Source of the DNA: Macrolepiota albuminosa
Lineage: Eukaryota > Basidiomycota > Agaricomycetes > Agaricales > Agaricaceae
Reading direction: 5' to 3'
DNA length: 64,000 nt
Assembly: GCA_027475525.1 (NCBI GenBank)
Contig: JAMWFC010000044.1
Span: forward strand, 186,001-250,000
Shown here: positions 24,247-34,731 of the stretch, piece by piece
Layout of the letters: every line of letters begins with the position of its first letter
Numbering within the stretch: the first letter of the stretch is position 1
Translations under genes and position numbers: made by a program
The notes under the pieces: model-generated
Databases searched by the model: none
Told to the model about the DNA's origin: nothing
Seen by the model: only the letters and a program-made list of their open reading frames with translations

Positions 24247-25200
24247 TGATACGTCGTCTGTCTCAAATCAGAGACAGAGACAGAGGAAAGGGACAACAAA
24301 TATACAAAATGTTTTATTTGATCCCAAGTCTACACAAGATTAAGCTGAAAACTGTAAGCTCTTGTGAAATGGTCGAAAACTGTAGACCGAGACGCACCTC
24401 AGAATATCAACCAACGCACCGTCAAGACCACCCAGCCAGCACCTAAAACGACGAAGCCGACGACAAAACAAGGCAGCGGCAGGATTTGATGGCGATCTCG
24501 GTCAAATCACCGAGATCGATCACATCTAGCGATCATAAGCTGATCATGATCGAAACTCGAATACGCACATTGTTCTTCTTCAAAACTACCTGCGCGCCAC
24601 TGCTATTCCAACCCCGTCGCATGCCCACCCAACCACGAAACAACGTCGAGAGCCCCAAGGGAAGGAACAGAGAAGTGAGGAAGGGAGCTGGAACAGGGTT
24701 TAGCCGATGGAGTCGATGGAGAAACGTTTAGCCTCACCAAGTGACGGCAAAGCACATCTACCGACGCCCAGACCCGGCAACCAGCTACGCCGACCAACCG
24801 AACGCGAGAATAGCACGAGGGAACCGTTTATCACATAAAAACACGATGGTCCGTGCGTAGGAGGAGGACGTATAAAAGGAGTGGAATTTCGGGGAGGCCG
24901 GGCAAGTAATCGACTTGCCACGGCTCGGAGTCCCCAGGGAGCGGACGTCTTAGGCCAACGCGATTAGATTAACTTCGGGTTTAATAGTAATAATACTATT
25001 TGCATCCCCAATTTCGAGTGTGAATTTATTTACATTCAAATTAAATTCAATAAAAATTATAACAACTACATTTTACAAAGTGTTAGTGCGCGCAACGCTG
25101 CCCCACGAGCCATTGTGAATTAAAGTCGAAATTACACAAAAGTTAGTCTGACTTCGTTTAGACTACTTTTAATTAATAGTACACTTTGCAATTCGCATCA
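24247..25200 (+). repeat. 5' LTR
   Basis: 954 bp, starts TGATACGTCGTC and ends ATTCGCATCA. Promoter elements: TATAAAAG at 24871-24878; polyadenylation signal AATAAA at 25049-25054. A perfect 10-bp inverted repeat with a 6-nt loop lies at 24493-24518 (CGATCTCGGT / ACCGAGATCG). Open frames inside are non-coding in character and are identical in the two LTRs. Confidence 0.93.
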
Positions 25201-25202
25201 TC

Positions 25203-25220
25203 TGGAGCCCACCGCGAGGG
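25203..25220 (+). promoter_or_regulatory. Candidate primer binding site
   Basis: TGGAGCCCACCGCGAGGG begins 2 nt after the 5' LTR, with the usual leading TGG (complement of tRNA CCA). Which tRNA it matches was not determined. Confidence 0.5.
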
Positions 25221-25524
25221 GGCTTTTGTTGCACAATCAAATACTTTGTCGGATCTCCATTTGGAGTCCAAACCACCAAAAAGAAACATTAGTTTCGCAC
25301 CGCCAGGTTCTTGGCCCGGCACGCCTAAGGTTACTACACCAAGGGCAAAAACCATTATTTCTCCCAGGAGAAGAGAAACTCGTGCATCCTCCAAGGGCAC
25401 AGTTGCTAGTCTCCCGGATCCAGACGCTGTACTTCGTAAACGAAAACTTCGGACTGAGAAGTACACGCCTACACCACAAACACCTAAGTCTTCATTGCCT
25501 GAGCCAACTAAGTTGACCAGCATT

Positions 25525-26817
25525 ATGGAGCAACCCATGCGCTATAAAATGCCATTGCCTGAAAGTAGAGATGCACCTAAGTTCAGAAGCAGTGAGCCTG
25601 CTGAGGTTCACAGGTTTCTGCAGAGAATGCAGTCTCTATTCAATCATGCAGGCATTGTGGAGGATGGAGAAAAGAAGAAGAGGTTATTAGAATATGTGGA
25701 TGCAGAAACTGAGCAGGAATGGAGAGGGTTCGATAGTTTTGAGGATAGATATCCTTGGGCCACCTTTATAAGGGAGGTCAAGGAATCATACCCTGAAGCT
25801 ATGGATGAGGCAGGAAGCATGGCAAACCTGGATAGGATCTGTAAGGAGCATGCCAGGCTAAGCAGAGGGGATGCCCCTGAGCTGCACTCCTTAATCAGAA
25901 AATTCAGGGCTGAAGCCAAGAAGCTGGATAGTGTTGTAGGGAATGGGGTATTGGTGGATAAGTTTATGGGGTGTTTTACACCCACCCTGGCAGAGTTAGT
26001 GGAGGAGAGACTCATCCACAAACATGGCCATTACAGGGATCCTGCTCGTAATCGTCACAAGGACAACAAATATGACTTGTCTGAAGTGATTGCAGTAGTG
26101 ACAGCCCTAGTAGATGGGACAACTGTCAGGAAGACTAGGGGAGAAACCACCAGCAGGGAGGTGGGTGGAGTAGTAGTGAAAAATGAGGAGGCAGAAGAGA
26201 GGATGGCTCATCTGCAAGACTCTATGGTGGCTATTGGAAAGCAGGTTGGCAGCATCCAAAGTGCTATGCAAGCTCTGCAAAATAGCCAACTGGACATAAG
26301 GAATGCCTTCCTAACTACCAAAAGCCACCATGGAGGGCAAACAGAGAGGCCTGCTCAGGCCATGATGCCAACCCCTGGTGGAAGCACCTACTGCTTCTAC
26401 TGTTGGGGAACTGGTCATCGTATAGCTGAGTGTGAGCAGGTGAAATCAGATGTTCAAAAGGGATGGGTGATACTAGTGGATGGAAGGACCAGGATGCCCA
26501 ACAGAGCTCCTCTACCCAGAGAGCCATCCAGCATATCACCACATGATAGAGTAATGAAGTTACATGACTCTCAAGTGGGGTTGTACTTTGGCTGGGCTGA
26601 GGAAGCTCAAGACATCCCAACCTACTCTACTTACACCAATGCTGTAAGAGATACTAGGGATGACATGTTGGAGCGCATCCAGCATGGAGAGGCAGACAGG
26701 CTAGGAGAACTGGAAAAGGGCTTTCAAAGACTGACAGAAGTCATGTCAGTCTTAGTCAACACCAGGCATACTCCTAGTCCTGGTGAAGGACAACAAGGAG
26801 GGTCCAAGGATTTTTGA
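25525..26817 (+). CDS. gag: Gag of Ty3/gypsy element
   Basis: First ATG in this frame is at 25525, giving 430 residues. A retrotransposon Gag capsid-like region spans about residues 10-180 (VHRFLQRMQSLFNHAG, ATFIREVKESYPEA, LIRKFRAEAKKL). A CCHC zinc knuckle, CFYCWGTGHRIAEC, lies near residue 290. The frame is also open upstream back to 25186 with Ser/Pro/basic protein-like content and no ATG in 25201-25524, so the true N-terminus could be longer through a non-AUG start or splicing. Ends TTT TGA at 26815-26817, where the protease frame continues in -1. Confidence 0.9.
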   Translation: MEQPMRYKMPLPESRDAPKFRSSEPAEVHRFLQRMQSLFNHAGIVEDGEKKKRLLEYVDAETEQEWRGFDSFEDRYPWATFIREVKESYPEAMDEAGSMANLDRICKEHARLSRGDAPELHSLIRKFRAEAKKLDSVVGNGVLVDKFMGCFTPTLAELVEERLIHKHGHYRDPARNRHKDNKYDLSEVIAVVTALVDGTTVRKTRGETTSREVGGVVVKNEEAEERMAHLQDSMVAIGKQVGSIQSAMQALQNSQLDIRNAFLTTKSHHGGQTERPAQAMMPTPGGSTYCFYCWGTGHRIAECEQVKSDVQKGWVILVDGRTRMPNRAPLPREPSSISPHDRVMKLHDSQVGLYFGWAEEAQDIPTYSTYTNAVRDTRDDMLERIQHGEADRLGELEKGFQRLTEVMSVLVNTRHTPSPGEGQQGGSKDF

Positions 26818-27839
26818 GGAGCTCAAGGAAGGAAGTGAGGGAAGCTCCACCAGGGATACCCACATTTCCAGAGAGGCAGCCACAAAATTCCTGGAAAGAA
26901 AAGCTAACTTTGAGGATTCCACCCAAAGTGGCACCCAAGTTGGACTTACCTTTTGAAAAGGTGCCAGCTTTGAATGAGAGGCAGGAGGTACCAGTGCAGG
27001 ACACTGGTAGGAGTTCCATTCAGGGAACTAGGAAGGAGTTGGAGAAGATGGTTGAGAAGCTGTGGGAGGTACCAGTGCCACTAACCACCAGAGAACTTCT
27101 GGATGTGGCACCTGGTTTGAGGGAGGTCATGGTACAAAAGCTGGTACCAAAGCCTCCCAGGCCTAAGGAACCCAATATTCCTAGGGCAGCTACTCAACAC
27201 CTGACAGCAGTGGAGAAAGAGCCTAACAAGGTAGATGTTAATGATCTACCTATGGCCACCTACTTCATTGCAGATGGAACACAATCTGGCTTGCCTACTG
27301 GTGCAGTAGTGCACCAGGATTGTGTTGCCACTTACTTGGAGAATATCCCAACAGGAGAAAAACCAGTAGTGGTATATGTAGCCAGGGAGTTGCAGGTTCT
27401 GAGATCTCTCAACCCAGTTGTCAATCAAAAGGGAAGAGCAGAGGCAATTCTAGATAGTGGATCTCAAATAGTCTGTATGGCTTTAAGAGAGGCTCTCAAT
27501 CTAGGATTGACTTGGGATCCAGACATTAGGCTGAGGATGGAGAGTGCCAATCAGCAAGTGAATGAATCTGTTGGTTTAGCACGTAATGTGCCATTCACTT
27601 TTGCAGAAGGGTTCACTATCTATCTACAAGTGCATATTTTTGAAAGTCCTGCTTATACTGTCTTATTGGGTCGTCCATTTGACACCTTGACAGAAAGCAA
27701 CATTCAAAACTTGCAGGATGGCAGTGCCATCATCACCATTCGAGACCCTAATACAGGTCGTCGAACTGCCCTGCCTACTATTGAAAGAGGCAAAATGCCA
27801 AAGGCAGGGGCTGCTAGGGAGAGTGAAGCAAAATTTTGA
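26814..27839 (+). CDS. pro: Aspartic protease region (Pro) in -1 frame to gag
   Basis: Open in the -1 frame; it overlaps gag only over 26787-26817 and has no early ATG (first Met near 27049), so it is probably made by -1 frameshifting at the T5 run 26811-26815 before the gag TGA. N-terminal 200 residues are Pro/Lys-rich linker; the retropepsin core has AILDSGSQIVCM (catalytic Asp in DSG, near 27450) and a later YTVLLGRPFDTLT flap/ILG-like motif. Ends TTT TGA at 27837-27839. Function: processing of the polyprotein in the particle. Confidence 0.85.
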   Translation: MRSSRKEVREAPPGIPTFPERQPQNSWKEKLTLRIPPKVAPKLDLPFEKVPALNERQEVPVQDTGRSSIQGTRKELEKMVEKLWEVPVPLTTRELLDVAPGLREVMVQKLVPKPPRPKEPNIPRAATQHLTAVEKEPNKVDVNDLPMATYFIADGTQSGLPTGAVVHQDCVATYLENIPTGEKPVVVYVARELQVLRSLNPVVNQKGRAEAILDSGSQIVCMALREALNLGLTWDPDIRLRMESANQQVNESVGLARNVPFTFAEGFTIYLQVHIFESPAYTVLLGRPFDTLTESNIQNLQDGSAIITIRDPNTGRRTALPTIERGKMPKAGAARESEAKF

Positions 27840-30800
27840 GTCTCGAGGAACTGGTTACAGACCAGGGAGAGATTGCAATAAGTCTTGCTGAGACTCAGGA
27901 AGGGGAGATTGTGGTGACTGGATATTCTATGGAACATAGTAAATTCAGTCAGGAAGAGTTGAGAGATGTGTACTTGCATGCTTTTATAGCAAGCAAGGAG
28001 TGTGAGGAGAAGGAGCAGAAGACATTGTCAGCATATTTGAATGGGCATTTAGCTCAAATACCTGACAGTCTTGAGGAGCTGCTAGTACAAGAGGAAAACT
28101 TAGAGTCAAAAGCAGGTGTGGGGGAGACTGCCCAAGTATTTTCTAAGAAATACAAACCTGTGGCTAGAAAAGTTAAGCCTGTACTAGGTACCTCACCTGA
28201 GGAGTTTAGAATTGAGAGGTGCATTACTGGAGACCCACTGGCAGACATGCCTCAGTTGGATCCCAATCCACCAGAGTTCAAACCCACAGGGAGATACACA
28301 GCTGAGTGCAAAGAAGTCATTGACCAAGCCCATGGTGATGGTTTTCTTTGGCCAGAGGAGATGAAAGCAGTACATCACCTTATGATGCTGCAAAACCAGG
28401 CTTTTGCATGGGATGATTCTCAAAGAGGAAGGCTGAAGGAGGAATTCTTCCCTCCAGTAATCATGCCAGTAATCCCTCACACCCCATGGGTGTTGAAGAA
28501 CATTCCTATTGCACCAGGTCTTAGGGATAGAATCTGCAAAATGATAAAGCAGAAGATTGAGGCAGGGGTCTATGAACCCTCTAACTCCTCATATCGCTCC
28601 CAATGGTTTACAGTGTTAAAGAAGGATGGTGAAAGCTTGAGGATAGTCCATAGCTTAGAGCCTTTGAATAAAGTGACCATAGCACACTCTGGGTTGCCAC
28701 CAGCAACTGAAGAGTTAGCTAGTCACTTCTCAGGCAGAGCTTGTGGAGGGATCTTTGACTTGTATGTAGGATATGATGAGAGAGTACTAGATGTGCGCTC
28801 TAGAGATTATACTACATTCCAGACACCATTTGGAGCTCTAAGGTTGGTTACCTTACCAATGGGGTGGACAAATTCAGTGCCTATCTTCCATGATGATATT
28901 ACCTTCATCTTGAAAGATGAAATACCACATGTAACTTGGCCATACATTGATGATGTACCAGTCAGAGGGCCACCTCATAGATATGAGTTGCCAGATGGTA
29001 GCTGTGAAGTCATACCAGAGAATCCAGGCATCAGGAGATTTGTATGGGAACACCTGCTCAATGTGAACAGGGTGTTACAAAGAATCAAATATGCAGGAGG
29101 GACTTTCTCTGGGAAGAAGTCAGTAGTATGTGCAGATGAGATTGTGGTTGTTGGCCATAGATGCTCTTATGAAGGGCAGAAGCCAGAGACCAAGAGATTT
29201 GCCATAGTAATGGGATGGGGTGACTGCAGGGATAAACATGAAGTAAAGTCATTCTTAGGGACCTGTGGTACCTTTAGATCCTTTATCAAGGACTATGCCA
29301 AGGTAGCAGCACCTATCAATAAACTTACTCAGAATAATGTACCTTTTACTTGGGGAGAAGAACAGCGCTCTGCAATGGCACAAATGAAAAAGTTGCTAGC
29401 AGAAAGTGCTCCTTTAAAACCCATTGACTATGAGTCAGGAGGTGCAGTAGTTCTGTCAGTAGATACATCCTGGATGGCAGTGGGTTTTGGAATCTTCCAA
29501 GAAGACCCAGACAATCCTAAAATGCGCACTTGTGCCAAGTTAGGATCTATCACCCTGAATGAGAGAGAAGCTAGATTTTCTCAACCAAAAAGAGAGCTGT
29601 ATGGTCTCATGAGATCTCTGCTAGCCAACAGGCATTGGCTAGTTGGTTGTAGAAAATTAGTGATAGAGACAGATGCCAAGTATCTTAAGGGGATGCTAGG
29701 AAATCCTGGAGTAGGACCCAATGCCACTATCATGAGATGGATTGAGAGTGTCCTACTCTACCACTTTACCTTAAGGCATGTGCCAGGCAAAACATTCAGT
29801 GTGGATGGATTGTCAAGGCGGCCTAAACAGCCAGGAGATGAGGAGTACCCACCAGTTGATCCTGAGTTAATGGATGAACCCAAGTCTATGAACTATGAGT
29901 ATCCAGACAAGCTCAATAATGTACCTGGTTGGGAAGACTGGGAACCTTTGGAACTTGAAGAGTTTGCAGACCAAATTGATACTAGAGGTGGCTATCTAAA
30001 CATGGTAGCCACTGAAGTATCAGATTTTGAGCAAGAACTTTGTAAAGCCAGGTCCCAAGAGCAGGAACTCAGGAATGGCATCTTGAGTCAAACACCAGGG
30101 ACAAGCATGAATCCAGTAGCAGTATTAGCTATGACCATGCCTCTGTTACCAGTGGAGGACCAAGAAATCAGAGTAGAGGACACACAAACCTACCTAGAGC
30201 ACAGGAAAGGTGGTGAGGGTGAAGACTGGGATAATCTGCTACCCACTGTTCAGAGCTGGTTGCAAGATCCAGGGACAGAACCCAAGAATCTACAAGGCTG
30301 GGATCTAGAGAAGTTTAAGAAGTTTGCTAGGCAATTCTTCTTTGACAAGAAAGGGAGATTGTATAAGCGCTGTCATGAGGAGAAACATAAACTAGTAGTC
30401 CAAATTGATAGACGAATGTTCATGCTTAAATCAGCCCATGATGCCTTAGGACATAGGGGAGCCTATGCCACCAGAATGCTTATACAAGAGCGTTTCTGGT
30501 GGCCTGGCATTGAAGGGGATGTACAGTGGTATGTTGGGACTTGTCACAATTGTCAAATCAGACAAAAGACAGTAGTCAACAGGGAACCAACTGTAACTTA
30601 TACTCCCTCCATCTTTCAAACAATTCACATTGATACCATGCACATGACACCAGCTTCCAATGGCTGTAAGTACATAGTACATGGCAGGTGTGCCTTGTCT
30701 TCTTGGATGGAAGGTAGACCCCTGAGGAAGGAGAACCATAAGACCATTGGTCAATGGTTGTTTGAAGATGTGATTTGCCGCTGGGGCTGCATTGCAGAGA

Positions 30801-31660
30801 TCATCACAGATAATGCTGGACAGTTCAAGCAGGTCACTGCCTGGTTGGAAAAGAAGTATGGGATTAGAGGTATTACTATCTCCCCTTACAACTCACCAGC
30901 TAATGGTAGAATTGAAAGACCTCATTGGGATGTCAGGCAAGCTTTGTTCAAAGCCTGTGAGGATCGCACCAAGTGGTTCTGGTTCTTCTACCATGTGATG
31001 TGGAGTGACCGTATAACCATTAGGCAGAGATTTGGATGTTCACCATACTTCATGGTCACTGGTGCTCATCCTACTCTACCCTTGGATCTAGCAGAGGCCA
31101 CCTGGCTGGTAGAATTACCAGAAGGACCCCTGACTACTGAGGAGTTGATTGGATATCGTGCTAGAGCTCTAGCCAAGCACCATCAACATGTGGAGGAAAT
31201 GAGAGAGAGAGTTGGGAAGGCTAAGCTCCAATGGGCATTGAAGTTTGCAGAAGAGCATAAAAGCTCAATCAAAGACTTCAATTTTAAACCATTGGACTTG
31301 GTACTGGTCAAAAACATGACTACTGAAAGTTCATTCAGTGCTAAGATGTTGCCACGTTTCCATGGGCCTATGGTAGTAATTGCCAAGACTCAGGGTGGTA
31401 ATTACATTGTAGCAGAACTAGATGGGTCAGTTTGGCAAGCACGAGTAGCTGCTTTTCGAGTTGTACCTTACAAGGCTCGCAAAAAGCTAACTTTGCCTCA
31501 AGGCATAGAAAAGTGGGTGGACATTACACCTGCTAAGCTAAAAGAGCTAAGGGAAGAACTACGAAAACCTACAGAGTTAATCACCAAGGACATCTCATTT
31601 GGCACAGTAAGGCTCCATGAGCCCACTGACCAAGAGTTAGGTCTGCCACAAACTGATTGA
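27836..31660 (+). CDS. pol: Pol: reverse transcriptase, RNase H, integrase
   Basis: 1,274-codon frame in -1 relative to pro (opens after a TGA at 27824-27826, so the overlap is only about 10 nt). RT: SQWFTVLKKDGESLRIVHSL, then TLPMGWTNSVPIF and the catalytic YIDD at about residue 370. RNase H of Ty3 type: VLSVDTSWMAVGFGIFQ, EREARFSQPKRELYG, IETDAKYL. Integrase zinc module HDALGHRG..CHNC at about residues 867-905; DDE core with IHIDTMHM (about 931), IITDNAGQF (about 991) and NGRIERPHW (about 1025). C-terminal GPMVVIAKTQGGNYIV domain; no chromodomain is seen. Complete and apparently functional. Confidence 0.95.
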   Translation: MSLEELVTDQGEIAISLAETQEGEIVVTGYSMEHSKFSQEELRDVYLHAFIASKECEEKEQKTLSAYLNGHLAQIPDSLEELLVQEENLESKAGVGETAQVFSKKYKPVARKVKPVLGTSPEEFRIERCITGDPLADMPQLDPNPPEFKPTGRYTAECKEVIDQAHGDGFLWPEEMKAVHHLMMLQNQAFAWDDSQRGRLKEEFFPPVIMPVIPHTPWVLKNIPIAPGLRDRICKMIKQKIEAGVYEPSNSSYRSQWFTVLKKDGESLRIVHSLEPLNKVTIAHSGLPPATEELASHFSGRACGGIFDLYVGYDERVLDVRSRDYTTFQTPFGALRLVTLPMGWTNSVPIFHDDITFILKDEIPHVTWPYIDDVPVRGPPHRYELPDGSCEVIPENPGIRRFVWEHLLNVNRVLQRIKYAGGTFSGKKSVVCADEIVVVGHRCSYEGQKPETKRFAIVMGWGDCRDKHEVKSFLGTCGTFRSFIKDYAKVAAPINKLTQNNVPFTWGEEQRSAMAQMKKLLAESAPLKPIDYESGGAVVLSVDTSWMAVGFGIFQEDPDNPKMRTCAKLGSITLNEREARFSQPKRELYGLMRSLLANRHWLVGCRKLVIETDAKYLKGMLGNPGVGPNATIMRWIESVLLYHFTLRHVPGKTFSVDGLSRRPKQPGDEEYPPVDPELMDEPKSMNYEYPDKLNNVPGWEDWEPLELEEFADQIDTRGGYLNMVATEVSDFEQELCKARSQEQELRNGILSQTPGTSMNPVAVLAMTMPLLPVEDQEIRVEDTQTYLEHRKGGEGEDWDNLLPTVQSWLQDPGTEPKNLQGWDLEKFKKFARQFFFDKKGRLYKRCHEEKHKLVVQIDRRMFMLKSAHDALGHRGAYATRMLIQERFWWPGIEGDVQWYVGTCHNCQIRQKTVVNREPTVTYTPSIFQTIHIDTMHMTPASNGCKYIVHGRCALSSWMEGRPLRKENHKTIGQWLFEDVICRWGCIAEIITDNAGQFKQVTAWLEKKYGIRGITISPYNSPANGRIERPHWDVRQALFKACEDRTKWFWFFYHVMWSDRITIRQRFGCSPYFMVTGAHPTLPLDLAEATWLVELPEGPLTTEELIGYRARALAKHHQHVEEMRERVGKAKLQWALKFAEEHKSSIKDFNFKPLDLVLVKNMTTESSFSAKMLPRFHGPMVVIAKTQGGNYIVAELDGSVWQARVAAFRVVPYKARKKLTLPQGIEKWVDITPAKLKELREELRKPTELITKDISFGTVRLHEPTDQELGLPQTD

Positions 31661-32302
31661 AAATTCTGAAAGAGAAGCTATGATATTTCAAGGAAATAAC
31701 AAAGTTCAACTCAAATTCTAAAATTCAAACAGTCTGATGGGAAGGTGTTTTGGCAGTAAAGAAAGCTATTCAAGGGAGGTACTAGCCTAATGAAGGTAGC
31801 TACCAACCAAAAAGAGGATACTCCTCAACTTAAGTCTATAACCAATGGAAATTTATGATAGAACAAAAGCACAGAGTGCTGACGTTCGGGTCTAAAGCCA
31901 GTGGAGCACTTAATTGAACTAGTCGTGGTAACGCACAGGTTCAAGCCCGTAGCGGAGCGTTTACTTAGCCAATAAACTTGGACAAACTCAGGACGAAACA
32001 AACGCCGACTTGATAAGTCAGCGCGCGCGTTCAAAACAGAGTAAAGTACCAAGTTTGGCTAAATAAAACAGGAGGGGTCAGCGCGTCGAGCGTTCGAGCC
32101 CCAGGAGAAGAATAAAAATAATAAATTCGGAAAAGAGAATGAAAACGTGTTGTTAAGTTAACAATTGAAAAACTTAAAAAAATCGCACGTTTTCGGACTT
32201 AAAAGGATTTATTGGGGTACTACGGATTAGAAGAAGGGGGAGAGACTATTTTAAGGCTATGCAAGGCAGAGACAACGCCGATGCTTGCAACGGGGAGGGC
32301 GT
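31661..32302. other. Spacer between pol and antisense gene
   Basis: About 640 bp, no coding potential recognised. Composition turns CpG-rich from about 31870. Contains two Pol III B-box-like strings, GGTTCAAGCCC at 31938-31948 and CGTTCGAGCCCC at 32091-32102. It is the 3' flank of the antisense gene and probably holds its polyadenylation region. Confidence 0.5.
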
Positions 32303-33583
32303 CTATAATGCCACGGCATCTTCGGGACCATCCTGGGTAGAGTCTTGGAATTCGACGTCTGATTCTTCGTTGCTCGACTGCAGAAGCAGGAGAGTGAGCA
32401 GATCTGGATAAAAAAAGAACAAACCAAGAGACTCACCACAAGAGGAACCTGAAGGGCACGAAAGAGCGAGCCGGCTTGATCGACGTCAGAAGGGCCTAGA
32501 GCCTGTTCGAGACGAGTACGGCGGTCCGAAATCATCTTGAAAGTTTGTAGCGCAACGTCGAGCTGATACAACTGATGTTGAGCAGCTAAGTCGACCGCGT
32601 CGCGATGCTTTTGAAGGTCCGACCGGGGAACGATCTCGTTGTCATCGGCCAACTGCACTAGTTCAAGAGCTTGATCGACCGCGGCAAGCAGGGCTAGCGC
32701 AGCGTCGGTGCCTGGAACATGATTAGCTAGGGTCTCAGGAAGTCAGATAAGCAAAAACTCAGAAGAAAACAAAAGGGGACGCACCCAGAGAGGGCGTAAC
32801 TTTGAGCTTCTTCGTTTTGGGCTTTCCCTCGGGCTCGACCTGGGGTGGGGAGATGGAGATAGTCAGCGTGTCAAGACGGCGAGCTACTAAGTCAAGTTTG
32901 CGCGCTAAGACTTACGTTAGCACGACGTTTTGCAGGGCGCGAGGCAGGCGTACCAAGCATTTCGACATCTTTGTCTTGTGCGCGACGCTGTGCCTATAAT
33001 AGTAAAAACTAAGGGTACGAGCAAAGGGAGCTGAAAAGTAGAACTCACCTCCTCACGCTCCTTCCTAAGTTTTTCGCTCTGGGCAAAGGGAATGAAGGCG
33101 TCGACGAAGGAGAAGAACGCCTTCACGTCGCCTGAGTTGTCAGCCGCTCCACGGTCGAGAACAGGGAGGATCTCTGAGAAGGTCTCGCAGAGACCTCTCT
33201 GTTCAGAGAGCCGACCAAAGGTGCTCTCGTCAGCGAAACGCTGTAAAAAGCGTCAGACAAAAGGAGAAAGAGGGAAAAAGAAAACAGACCCAGCCAGCGC
33301 CACCTAAGAACCGAGCACGGTCGGCAGGTGTTCCGGGAAAAGACCTAGCAGTGGCACAGAGGCCGATCGCGGCCTCTGCGAACCATGGGTACTTGAACAC
33401 GGACGTTATAGCCTTGTTGCCATCGCGCTTGACAGCGCGCTGGAACAAGCTATAATAGTCAGTCGGCGCAGGCAGGATTGGTGGAGGCGGAGCAGGTGGC
33501 TTGGGAGGAGTCGAGATGACGACCTGAGGGCGCAACTTGGCGCCAGATGGCTTGCGTGGAGCAGAAGGGGGGGCCATAAACAT
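32303..33583 (-). CDS. Six-exon antisense accessory gene inside the gypsy element
   Basis: Read on the minus strand: exons 33290-33583, 33049-33240, 32916-32993, 32785-32839, 32437-32711, 32303-32377. All five introns (49, 55, 76, 73, 59 nt) have GT..AG borders and every junction keeps frame, giving 322 residues. Protein: Pro-rich start (PPKPPAPPPP), a well-formed globular-looking block with FKYPWFAEAAIGLCATARSF, a second helical block with FFSFVDAFIPFAQSEKL, a basic nuclear-signal-like stretch (PAKRRAN, GKPKTKKLK), a long helix-rich part likely to form a coiled coil (AALALLAAVDQALELVQLAD onward), and an acidic tail (SSNEESDVEFQD). No known retroelement domain or enzyme motif is recognised. 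Promoter would lie in 33584-33777 or the 3' LTR. Confidence 0.8.
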
Positions 33584-33765
33584 GGCAGGGGGCACCAATG
33601 GCGATTTTGTACCGTGGCGGCTGCGATCGAAAAAAAAAACGAGAGGGAAGTGTGCGGGAGGTAAAAGAAGAAAACTTTTTGCGCATAAAAAGTTTTCTGC
33701 CGAAGCCAAGAAAAAGTCGGAAGCACAGTCAGGTTGGCATGCTGACTGGGGGCAGTCAGTAAATG

Positions 33766-33777
33766 GTGTGAGGGAGG
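33766..33777 (+). promoter_or_regulatory. Polypurine tract
   Basis: GGTGTGAGGGAGG directly before the 3' LTR; the expected plus-strand primer position. Short and interrupted by Ts. Confidence 0.6.
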
Positions 33778-34731
33778 TGATACGTCGTCTGTCTCAAATC
33801 AGAGACAGAGACAGAGGAAAGGGACAACAAATATACAAAATGTTTTATTTGATCCCAAGTCTACACAAGATTAAGCTGAAAACTGTAAGCTCTTGTGAAA
33901 TGGTCGAAAACTGTAGACCGAGACGCACCTCAGAATATCAACCAACGCACCGTCAAGACCACCCAGCCAGCACCTAAAACGACGAAGCCGACGACAAAAC
34001 AAGGCAGCGGCAGGATTTGATGGCGATCTCGGTCAAATCACCGAGATCGATCACATCTAGCGATCATAAGCTGATCATGATCGAAACTCGAATACGCACA
34101 TTGTTCTTCTTCAAAACTACCTGCGCGCCACTGCTATTCCAACCCCGTCGCATGCCCACCCAACCACGAAACAACGTCGAGAGCCCCAAGGGAAGGAACA
34201 GAGAAGTGAGGAAGGGAGCTGGAACAGGGTTTAGCCGATGGAGTCGATGGAGAAACGTTTAGCCTCACCAAGTGACGGCAAAGCACATCTACCGACGCCC
34301 AGACCCGGCAACCAGCTACGCCGACCAACCGAACGCGAGAATAGCACGAGGGAACCGTTTATCACATAAAAACACGATGGTCCGTGCGTAGGAGGAGGAC
34401 GTATAAAAGGAGTGGAATTTCGGGGAGGCCGGGCAAGTAATCGACTTGCCACGGCTCGGAGTCCCCAGGGAGCGGACGTCTTAGGCCAACGCGATTAGAT
34501 TAACTTCGGGTTTAATAGTAATAATACTATTTGCATCCCCAATTTCGAGTGTGAATTTATTTACATTCAAATTAAATTCAATAAAAATTATAACAACTAC
34601 ATTTTACAAAGTGTTAGTGCGCGCAACGCTGCCCCACGAGCCATTGTGAATTAAAGTCGAAATTACACAAAAGTTAGTCTGACTTCGTTTAGACTACTTT
34701 TAATTAATAGTACACTTTGCAATTCGCATCA
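33778..34731 (+). repeat. 3' LTR
   Basis: Same 954 bp as the 5' LTR at a constant offset of 9,531 bp (TATAAAAG at 34402, AATAAA at 34580). No mismatch noticed when the two were read against each other. Followed by CCAT, the target duplication. Confidence 0.93.

Follow-up and report, generated by a model that had tools for sequence, protein, structure and literature searches.

An Intron-Containing Antisense Gene at the 3′ End of a Ty3/gypsy Element

The window analyzed here is a 64,000-nucleotide (nt) stretch of the Macrolepiota albuminosa genome (contig JAMWFC010000044.1, positions 186,001 to 250,000, forward strand). At 24247–34731 it carries a Ty3/gypsy retrotransposon that, as a first-pass annotation of this DNA had stated, is intact: its 954-bp long terminal repeats (LTRs) are identical, its ends read TG...CA, and CCAT flanks it on both sides. 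Between pol and the 3′ LTR, the minus strand of this element holds a gene of six exons and five introns, encoding 322 residues plus a stop. Introns 1–5 measure 49, 55, 76, 73, and 59 nt with GT-AG borders throughout, and the model of exons, introns, and frame proposed in the first pass was reproduced exactly, down to its coordinates. Extra antisense genes located between pol and the 3′ LTR in most copies of an element are described, in the available portions of two papers, as the class aORF-3R (PMC7264820, PMC11963269). The gene in the window occupies this position, with its open reading frame (ORF) split by introns.

Exon 1 (33290–33583; all exons are on the minus strand) encodes a Pro-rich start and the first part of a helical domain. 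Exon 2 spans 33049–33240; exon 3, in the form termed isoform A below, spans 32916–32993 and ends with GTPASRPAKRRAN. Exon 4 (32785–32839) contains GKPKTKKLKV, which by our own reading resembles a nuclear localization signal (NLS), exon 5 (32437–32711) supplies long C-terminal helices, and exon 6 (32303–32377) encodes an acidic tail and the stop. A poly(A)-like AATAAA signal lies at 32208–32213 on the same strand, and AATAAA, AATATA, or a similar A/T-rich word occupies this site in most copies inspected. In the proteins of other copies (L012, L013, L038, and L039) the first Met begins the sequence MAP..., two codons further in; judged from these, the conserved start is probably the second Met of the window protein.

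Models of two relatives from Termitomyces (P0001 and P0002) contain a confident helical N-terminal domain (residues ~31–165 in P0002) and long helices toward the C terminus; the basic linker, where the isoform switch lies, and the acidic tail are of low confidence. Most aligned relatives share the basic stretch KPKxKKxKV, which is read here as NLS-like. Helical blocks, a basic NLS-like stretch, and an acidic tail were also part of the layout outlined in the first pass; the Pro-rich start is located in exon 1. No Pfam family was found for the window protein at E 1, in line with the earlier remark that it has no known retroelement domain. Pfam scans of the window protein and 11 members of its family likewise yielded neither a bZIP nor a VANC-type domain, and Transposase_28 (PF04195) was absent among the three families matched by the 11 members at E 0.1.

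Selective Constraint on the Antisense Frame

Under permissive splice rules, the best ORF chain of the region reaches 1116 nt on the antisense strand versus 618 nt on the sense strand. As many as 972 coding nt or more were reached in 1 of 60 dinucleotide shuffles under the same rules; the earlier statement that chance was very unlikely is therefore too strong for a single sequence. Such a sequence is only suggestive, and the gene was accepted because of the comparison among copies.

The host genome (~100 Mb in 129 contigs) yields at least 42 DNA-level match rows for the antisense gene region, hereafter the module, with some copies split across two rows. In an alignment of 33 rows (the window and 32 copies) onto which the window exons were projected, the frame is kept without stops in 23 rows, 19 of which are distinct, L040 without exon 6 among these. 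Exon lengths are nearly constant among copies and introns 1, 2, 4, and 5 differ in length; identity is 71–78% in exons and 49–58% in these introns. For the 19 distinct intact modules, the ratio of nonsynonymous to synonymous divergence (dN/dS) has a median of 0.117 and a range of 0.056–0.405 (161 of 171 pairs; eight saturated pairs and two with dS ≤0.05 were left out), and pol gives 0.075 (105 pairs). The exons, for which the first-pass annotation had proposed this comparison, are thus not neutral. Silent sites in the module are near saturation, yet exons, splice sites, and frame are retained. Across the whole coding sequence, variability at codon positions 1, 2, and 3 is 0.105, 0.084, and 0.334; together with dN/dS, this pattern indicates that purifying selection acts on the antisense frame.

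A chance ORF chain was rejected on the grounds of this comparative constraint. Sense-strand coding as its source was rejected as well, the longest sense chain being the 618 nt given above; pN/pS is 0.24 in the antisense frame, 0.33 in one sense frame, and 1.1 and 1.8 in the other two.

Retention of the module can also be followed from the side of pol. The 29 best reverse transcriptase (RT) matches of this genome show ≥95% identity over at least 484 of the 490 residues, and in 26 of them the other strand carries a module match 4.1–5.9 kb away from where the RT starts. The gene is therefore present in most copies, as in the aORF-3R class, and its protein is conserved. The conditions under which the first pass would have given up the gene mostly did not hold. 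Copies without the module or its open frame, which it had counted against an accessory gene, do exist: one of the 29 has lost the module and two, on C114 and C65, are disrupted at its place. The loss concerns C62 (L053, G000:C62:1331300-1334600), a natural derivative without the module, which has an open pol, ~650 nt between pol and the 3′ LTR, and the hairpin loops described below. As to how introns could survive in such an element, their strand implies that they stand reverse-complemented in the element's sense RNA and would be able to pass through reverse transcription, as had been reasoned before; an intron-bearing gene can persist inside a retroelement by way of the opposite strand.

An Alternative Exon and Two Predicted Isoforms

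Among the introns, “intron 3” is the exception: it is 78% identical among copies, its length hardly changes, and it can be translated in the phase of exon 4 into a ARKLDLVARRLDTLTLSLPPPQ-like peptide. The intron of the first-pass model keeps its GT-AG borders, but its content is itself conserved as coding. An alternative intron of 49 nt (32905–32953, minus strand), predicted for an isoform B, has its acceptor TTAG directly past the isoform-A donor GTAAGT and CTAAC; the isoform-B coding stretch ARKLDLVARRLDTLTISISPPQ follows within “intron 3” at 32840–32904 on the same strand. For “intron 3,” 21 of 26 copies have the same length; over these, pN/pS is 0.25 in the coding frame as against 1.3 and 2.3 in the two remaining frames, and variability at the three codon positions is 0.109, 0.057, and 0.313. 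When translation is followed from the alternative acceptor, 24 of 26 copies have an uninterrupted frame, the exceptions being L010, with a stop, and L040, whose frame is shifted.

The splice signals are arranged in a compact block, CTAAC-GTAAGT-NNNAG, that combines a branch-like motif, the isoform-A donor, and the isoform-B acceptor. All 26 copies have the branch-like motif and the acceptor AG of both isoforms, and 25 keep the GT of the isoform-B donor. The isoform-A donor reads GTAAGT in 18 copies, GTGAGT or GTAGGT in two, and ATAAGT in six; the ATAAGT donors have probably decayed. These two overlapping introns predict two isoforms. Isoform A would retain GTPASRPAKRRAN (pN/pS 0.37) with the leucine-rich piece spliced out, and isoform B the reverse. 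Both KRRAN and KPKTKKLKV, which are basic, would thereby be present in isoform A; in isoform B, a leucine-rich segment would stand in place of KRRAN. Among database models of relatives, P0001 and P0002 have form A, P0004, P0005, P0016, P0154 (Tephrocybe), and P0155 have form B, and P0006 and P0010 hold both stretches. These models are assumed to be automatic predictions, and they support but do not prove the two isoforms.

Covarying Hairpins at the 3′ End

Four palindromic features, given without strand, cluster around the start of the 3′ LTR. The hairpin or palindrome s1 (33741–33760), (C/A)TGACTG NNNN CAGTCA(G/T), lies just before the polypurine tract, and its outer pair covaries. The inverted repeat s2 (33788–33809) at the LTR start reads TGTCTC/GAGACA in the window and TGCCTC/GAGGCA in other copies. 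Hairpins s3 (33874–33891, AGCT-GAAAACTGTA-AGCT) and s4 (33902–33919, GGTC-GAAAACTGTA-GACC) both have a conserved loop; the outer stem of s3 varies among copies, and the stem of s4 covaries. Both GAAAACYGTA-type loops are present in 20 of 26 rows, one in three (L030, L039, and L040), and none in three (L035, L037, and L038), of which just 19–70 nt of LTR are covered; eight further copies fall outside this count, with the LTR start unrecognized or outside the sequence covered. The 10-nt loop is nearly invariant (its first base is G, A, or C), and the stem beyond a short core changes on both sides, giving, for example, CTGCT/AGCAG, GCGCT/AGCGC, and AATGCT/AGCATT for s3 and GCGTC/GACGC and CAGTC/GACTG for s4.

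RNAalifold recovered s1, s3, and s4 unprompted, with six pairs doubly changed, and drew a weaker helix at the place of s2. Over s1, s3, and s4 combined, 95.6% of cells are paired, as against 21–44% in slid versions, and 13 cells are doubly changed versus 4.5 in shuffles, none of 500 being as high. With anchored counts, the number of 2000 shuffles as high was three for s1, eight for s3, and zero for both s4 and s2; relatedness among copies can inflate such covariation counts. A fixed loop on a variable stem suggests a hairpin formed by RNA or by a single strand more than it does a DNA palindrome read by its arms. With a transcription start close to the TATA-like box (LTR position 625), the genomic RNA would contain s1–s4 once, at its 3′ end, and the leader of any antisense transcript that begins in the LTR would include some of them.

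A separate perfect inverted repeat, GAAAACTTTTT-ATGCGC-AAAAAGTTTTC, lies at 33670–33697 (minus strand) between the antisense ATG and the 3′ LTR. Other copies have A/T-rich stretches of different sequence at this place.

A 3′ Cassette Uncoupled from gag-pol

Where aligned blocks lie within gag-pol alone, the copies match the window at ~94–99% identity. Past the pol stop, the module is 74–80% identical in most copies, U3 is mostly not alignable, and R-U5 is mostly 70–82% identical, with L026 at 95%. At silent sites the contrast is sharper: dS is 0.095–0.19 for the 3′ half of pol in the pairs printed and 0.80–3.0 for the module relative to the window, except for the close copy L009 (0.20). Given equal mutation rates, this gap requires that old 3′ ends have recombined with a gag-pol common to the copies. 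A faster mutation rate at the 3′ end was rejected, as the modules of L012 (a copy without its 5′ part) and L018 are nearly alike (dS 0.04) but their pol dS is 0.17.

The genome assembly deserves attention here. Tandem duplications of 75–83 nt at differing places are found in 8 of 20 long copies (L009, L010, L019, L020, and L023–L026); they look like assembly k-mer joins and are relevant to any repeat analysis of this genome. In L021 (with L048), the LTRs match over 458 bp only, on the R-U5 side, and the 5′ U3 differs from the 3′ U3, the result of either recombination or an assembly join. The uncoupling nonetheless holds among three elements with matching LTRs, namely the window (100%), L017 (100% over 919), and L018 (99.6% over 924), which are flanked by the 4-bp repeats CCAT, ATAC, and ATAA, respectively. 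Pairwise, these show module dS of 0.94–0.97 and pol dS of 0.134–0.147, the module value for L017 being taken from L013, which is identical to it in module and pol.

Mantel tests on 16 copies gave correlations of −0.08 to 0.29 between pol distance and module or U3 segments. By comparison, U3 correlates with exon 1 at r 0.75–0.80, and exon 1 with the adjacent exon 2 at r 0.48, which hints that exon 1 and U3 form a unit. With gag-pol nearly uniform (pol dS ~0.14) and the antisense gene and U3 much older and more varied (dS ~1), the 3′ end is a cassette recombined onto a common gag-pol. This uncoupling, the alternative exon, and the covarying hairpins go beyond the first-pass annotation.

Distribution among Families and Species

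A search with the window protein returned 16 relatives, all from Termitomyces, and a profile search at least 37, of which 35 are from Termitomyces and two from Tephrocybe rancida (among the best 7996 candidates scored). None of the 37 has a precomputed Pfam domain. The pol protein, on the other hand, finds 1255 or more relatives at E 1e-30, with ~70% identity in the best of them; Armillaria and Lentinula are among the few named of the 120 pol relatives listed. The searches for relatives and further copies that the first pass had called for thus led to Termitomyces and Tephrocybe and to the 26 module-bearing copies counted above. Both genera belong to Lyophyllaceae. One Termitomyces model, P0157 (J132_03862), fuses antisense-gene sequence with integrase-like sequence that is, by eye, of the same pol type, and suggests that in Termitomyces, too, the antisense gene is a neighbor of a pol of this kind. 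A tree of the 19 own intact modules, from which the most divergent own modules are absent, places all of them in a single clade and gives no sign that they are interspersed with Termitomyces lineages.

Within M. albuminosa, a related family represented by L041 (RT 77% identical) has a homologous antisense gene of the same exon layout, in which introns of 59, 54, 79, and 55 nt occupy corresponding positions; it also has what reads as the same splice switch, and hairpin s3 with a further variant of the stem. A more distant family (L042, L051, and L052; G000:C110:2333600-2350500) has an RT that is 57% identical, LTRs of ~900 bp by self-comparison, and 4.9 kb separating pol from the 3′ LTR, where other antisense ORFs lie with Pfam matches of E 0.6 at best. 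One of these ORFs combines a Cys cluster (CDKC...CYRC...GCAF) with stretches of basic and of acidic residues and a segment resembling a coiled coil, and an element of this family apparently lies inside a 61-bp tandem repeat array. Antisense coding between pol and the 3′ LTR thus recurs, with this protein family so far seen only in Lyophyllaceae and the present host.

Structure of the Carrier Element

The 5′ LTR (24247–25200, plus strand) is an exact repeat of 33778–34731, with TG...CA ends and the CCAT flank. Three forward ORFs follow: ORF1 (25186–26817), listed from TTG, in the gag position and with all domain matches below cutoff; ORF2 (26814–27839), protease-like by weak matches to Asp_protease_2 and gag-asp_proteas, also below cutoff; and ORF3 (27836–31660), pol, with RT_RNaseH, RT_RNaseH_2, and Integrase_H2C2. 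The Pfam matches to RNase H and then to the integrase zinc-binding domain stand in order; a separate RT match was not found in the Pfam scan of the element's ORFs, and the RT region was assigned by position. With its LTRs, target-site duplication, protease-like ORF, and RT–RNase H before integrase, 24247–34731 has the organization of Ty3/gypsy elements; no env gene was seen. Within 25186–31660, consecutive ORFs overlap by exactly 4 nt each, and frameshifting or reinitiation are candidate routes for the translation of ORF2 and ORF3. The polypurine tract GTGAGGGAGG (33768–33777, plus strand) adjoins the 3′ LTR (33778–34731, plus strand), in which U3 (~33778–34430) is hypervariable among copies and R-U5 is more conserved; the end of U3 was placed from the TATA-like box at 34402.

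Proposed Function and Alternatives

The reading favored here, which we hold to be somewhat likelier true than false, is that the gene is an accessory gene of a Lyophyllaceae-type Ty3/gypsy lineage, belongs to the aORF-3R class, and encodes a nuclear regulator that recognizes the 3′ end of its own element. The gene would be transcribed against gag-pol from the 3′ LTR side, its five introns would be spliced, as their conservation suggests, and its transcript would be polyadenylated before pol at the AATAAA signal. The nuclear protein would then recognize its own U3 DNA or the hairpins in U3 and the 3′ RNA, and tune transcription or the handling of genomic RNA. Gene and U3 would for the most part be passed on together, as a single old cassette recombining with a shared pool of gag-pol; this would be expected of a protein that has to fit its target.

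The comparisons establish the gene and its constraint, the conservation of the splice signals, the cassette pattern, and the covariation of the stems. Several points weigh against the favored reading. Transcription, the promoter, and both isoforms as molecules are inferred, as are the nuclear location, the target, and the direction of regulation, and neither sequence nor fold searches gave a domain, solved relative, or fold match pointing to a function. The isoform-A donor is ATAAGT in 6 of 26 copies, and the copy on C62, with its open pol, indicates that the module is not strictly needed in cis. With regard to the cassette, some mosaics may be assembly artefacts, pol shows weak, nominally significant correlations with the segment of exons 3–4 (r 0.29, p 0.009) and with that of exon 1 (r 0.16, p 0.039), and the link between exon 1 and U3 may be plain physical linkage, with the low variation of exon 2 weakening its correlations. 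As for the hairpins, the measures least open to relatedness are also the weaker ones: pairs changed on both sides number 4 versus 2.7 in shuffles (22 of 500 as high), and further pair types 9 versus 7.7 (134 of 500 as high). Folds of single sequences give z from −1.3 to −1.8 in four of six cases and −3.7 and −4.1 in two, and that of L012 lacks s4.

Diverse, uncoupled cassettes fit a unit of specificity, most naturally an immunity-like one, with anti-silencing and RNA export as close rivals. In the immunity-like version, a specific form of the favored reading that is possible but unlikely as it stands, the protein represses the sense transcription or the retrotransposition of elements with a matching U3, and rare cassettes escape resident repressors, which would keep many old cassettes alive on one gag-pol. 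The immunity groups of temperate phages offer a comparison for such diversity. Old and diverse cassettes of U3 and gene on an almost uniform gag-pol agree with this version, as do the inverted repeats beside the LTR start and the tighter tracking of exon 1 by U3 than by exon 2; however, the last comparison suffers from the low variability of exon 2, no DNA-binding domain was recognized in domain and fold searches, and a sweep of gag-pol alone would give the same pattern.

Rather improbable, but similar in its evolutionary pattern to what is described in part of a report on VANC of the Arabidopsis VANDAL elements (PMC5735166), is an anti-silencing factor or transactivator that binds the element's own non-coding ends and lifts host silencing, its specificity co-evolving with target motifs. 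The repeated GAAAACYGTA loops of U3 would be candidate sites, although most copies have just two per LTR, and the change from GTAAGT to ATAAGT in six copies would fit cytosine deamination on the other strand; the Pfam scans described above found no VANC-type domain.

Doubtful to about the same degree is RNA export in the manner of Rev, Rex, or Rec, in which the leucine-rich segment of isoform B would serve for export, the signals of isoform A would be basic and for import only, and the protein, bound to the U3 hairpins at the 3′ end of the intronless genomic RNA, would bring that RNA from the nucleus. An export-like spacing of four hydrophobic residues (x3, x2, x1) is present in the alternative exon of 25 of the 26 own copies; all 14 proteins of isoform-B type hand-picked among the 37 relatives have it as well, but the pattern is unspecific and also occurs in the C-terminal helices of all 19 own proteins listed. 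The conserved-loop hairpins with covarying stems would lie in the part of U3 at the 3′ end of the genomic RNA if transcription starts near 34402; their mismatches, however, include both G-T and A-C and are uninformative on strand, and the gag-pol RNA has no known introns to overcome.

Quite improbable is an antisense transcript that acts as RNA, for instance as double-stranded RNA feeding silencing, with the protein of little weight: antisense transcription over the 3′ end would overlap the genomic RNA, as discussed for plant elements in the accessible part of a review (PMC7264820), but protein-level constraint is strong and the splice signals are conserved. A recently captured host gene riding as a passive passenger, an option raised in the first pass and suggested by the introns and the poly(A)-like signal, is very hard to credit, since no sign of recent capture was found, the gene is carried in register by 26 of 29 element copies and is common to the related family with an RT 77% identical, and none of the 37 database relatives is labeled as a known host gene (the genomic setting being readable for P0157 alone, with its integrase-like sequence).

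Extended to its fullest form, the regulator reading becomes a self-recognition cassette, in which an alternatively spliced antisense regulator and its matching U3 target (DNA or RNA) would persist in many old, mutually divergent types, shuffled onto a common gag-pol much like phage immunity regions. The splice switch would exchange a basic import segment for a leucine-rich, export-like one and so make a shuttling regulator of the element's own RNA. This extension is put forward tentatively and is rather unlikely as it stands. If true, it would extend self-specific regulation to fungal retrotransposons, and the 3′ cassette suggests itself as a unit of selection. Dozens of divergent copies in one genome, together with a constrained gene, make the function testable: the gene model is clear, two isoforms are predicted, the hairpins are candidate targets, and cassettes have been exchanged naturally on a gag-pol that hardly varies.

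Comparison with Known Systems

The statement in the first-pass annotation that Ty3/gypsy elements normally carry only gag-pol is better taken as a rule of thumb, as extra antisense genes at this very position are a described class in the portion of the review available (PMC7264820), which in 2020 gave the function of antisense accessory genes of LTR retrotransposons as unknown. In the parts consulted of the two papers on this class (PMC7264820, PMC11963269), aORF-3R members include maize Grande gene23, rice RIRE2, Silene Retand ORF4, and PvRetro13, and the Grande protein is nuclear and has its own promoter. The plant proteins have TRP28 and SMC domains in these accounts, whereas the protein here is a different one; the Transposase_28 domain (PF04195) of Retand TRP28, in particular, was not found in it. 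The word “intron” is absent from the main text of both papers, whereas the gene here is intron-rich, and neither a splice switch nor an uncoupled cassette is described in the parts consulted, both of which are features of the present element.

Among fungi, the Boty brtn gene of Botrytis cinerea and Sclerotinia was reportedly described by Zhao et al. 2011. As far as the available text goes, Boty is a fungal LTR element with an additional antisense gene, grouped in the class located between pol and the 3′ LTR (PMC7264820, PMC8365987); the likeness, a fungal LTR element with an antisense gene, is by description only, and none of the 37 relatives found is labeled Botrytis.

HBZ is spliced, and Rev, Rex, and Rec are not antisense; VANDAL elements are DNA transposons. 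HBZ of HTLV-1 resembles the gene here in being antisense from the 3′ LTR side and encoding a nuclear protein, according to an excerpt of PMC11963269, but it is a bZIP protein, whereas here no bZIP or other Pfam domain, a fungal host, and no env were seen. VANC shares the divergence of an element-encoded protein and its non-coding targets between related copies (PMC5735166, in part), but no domain relation was found, and only a candidate repeated U3 motif is present here. With Rev/Rex/Rec and RRE/RxRE/RcRE, the idea of a shuttling protein and a structured RNA is held in common (PMC10746203, in part), but no homology to the antisense protein was found.

Literature searches, judged partly by title, found no report of antisense genes in gypsy elements of Agaricomycetes or in LTR elements of Termitomyces. 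An antisense gene located between pol and the 3′ LTR is thus known from other elements; as far as these searches reach, what is new is its richness in introns, the conserved switch in its splicing, the age of the cassette, and the covariation in the hairpins.

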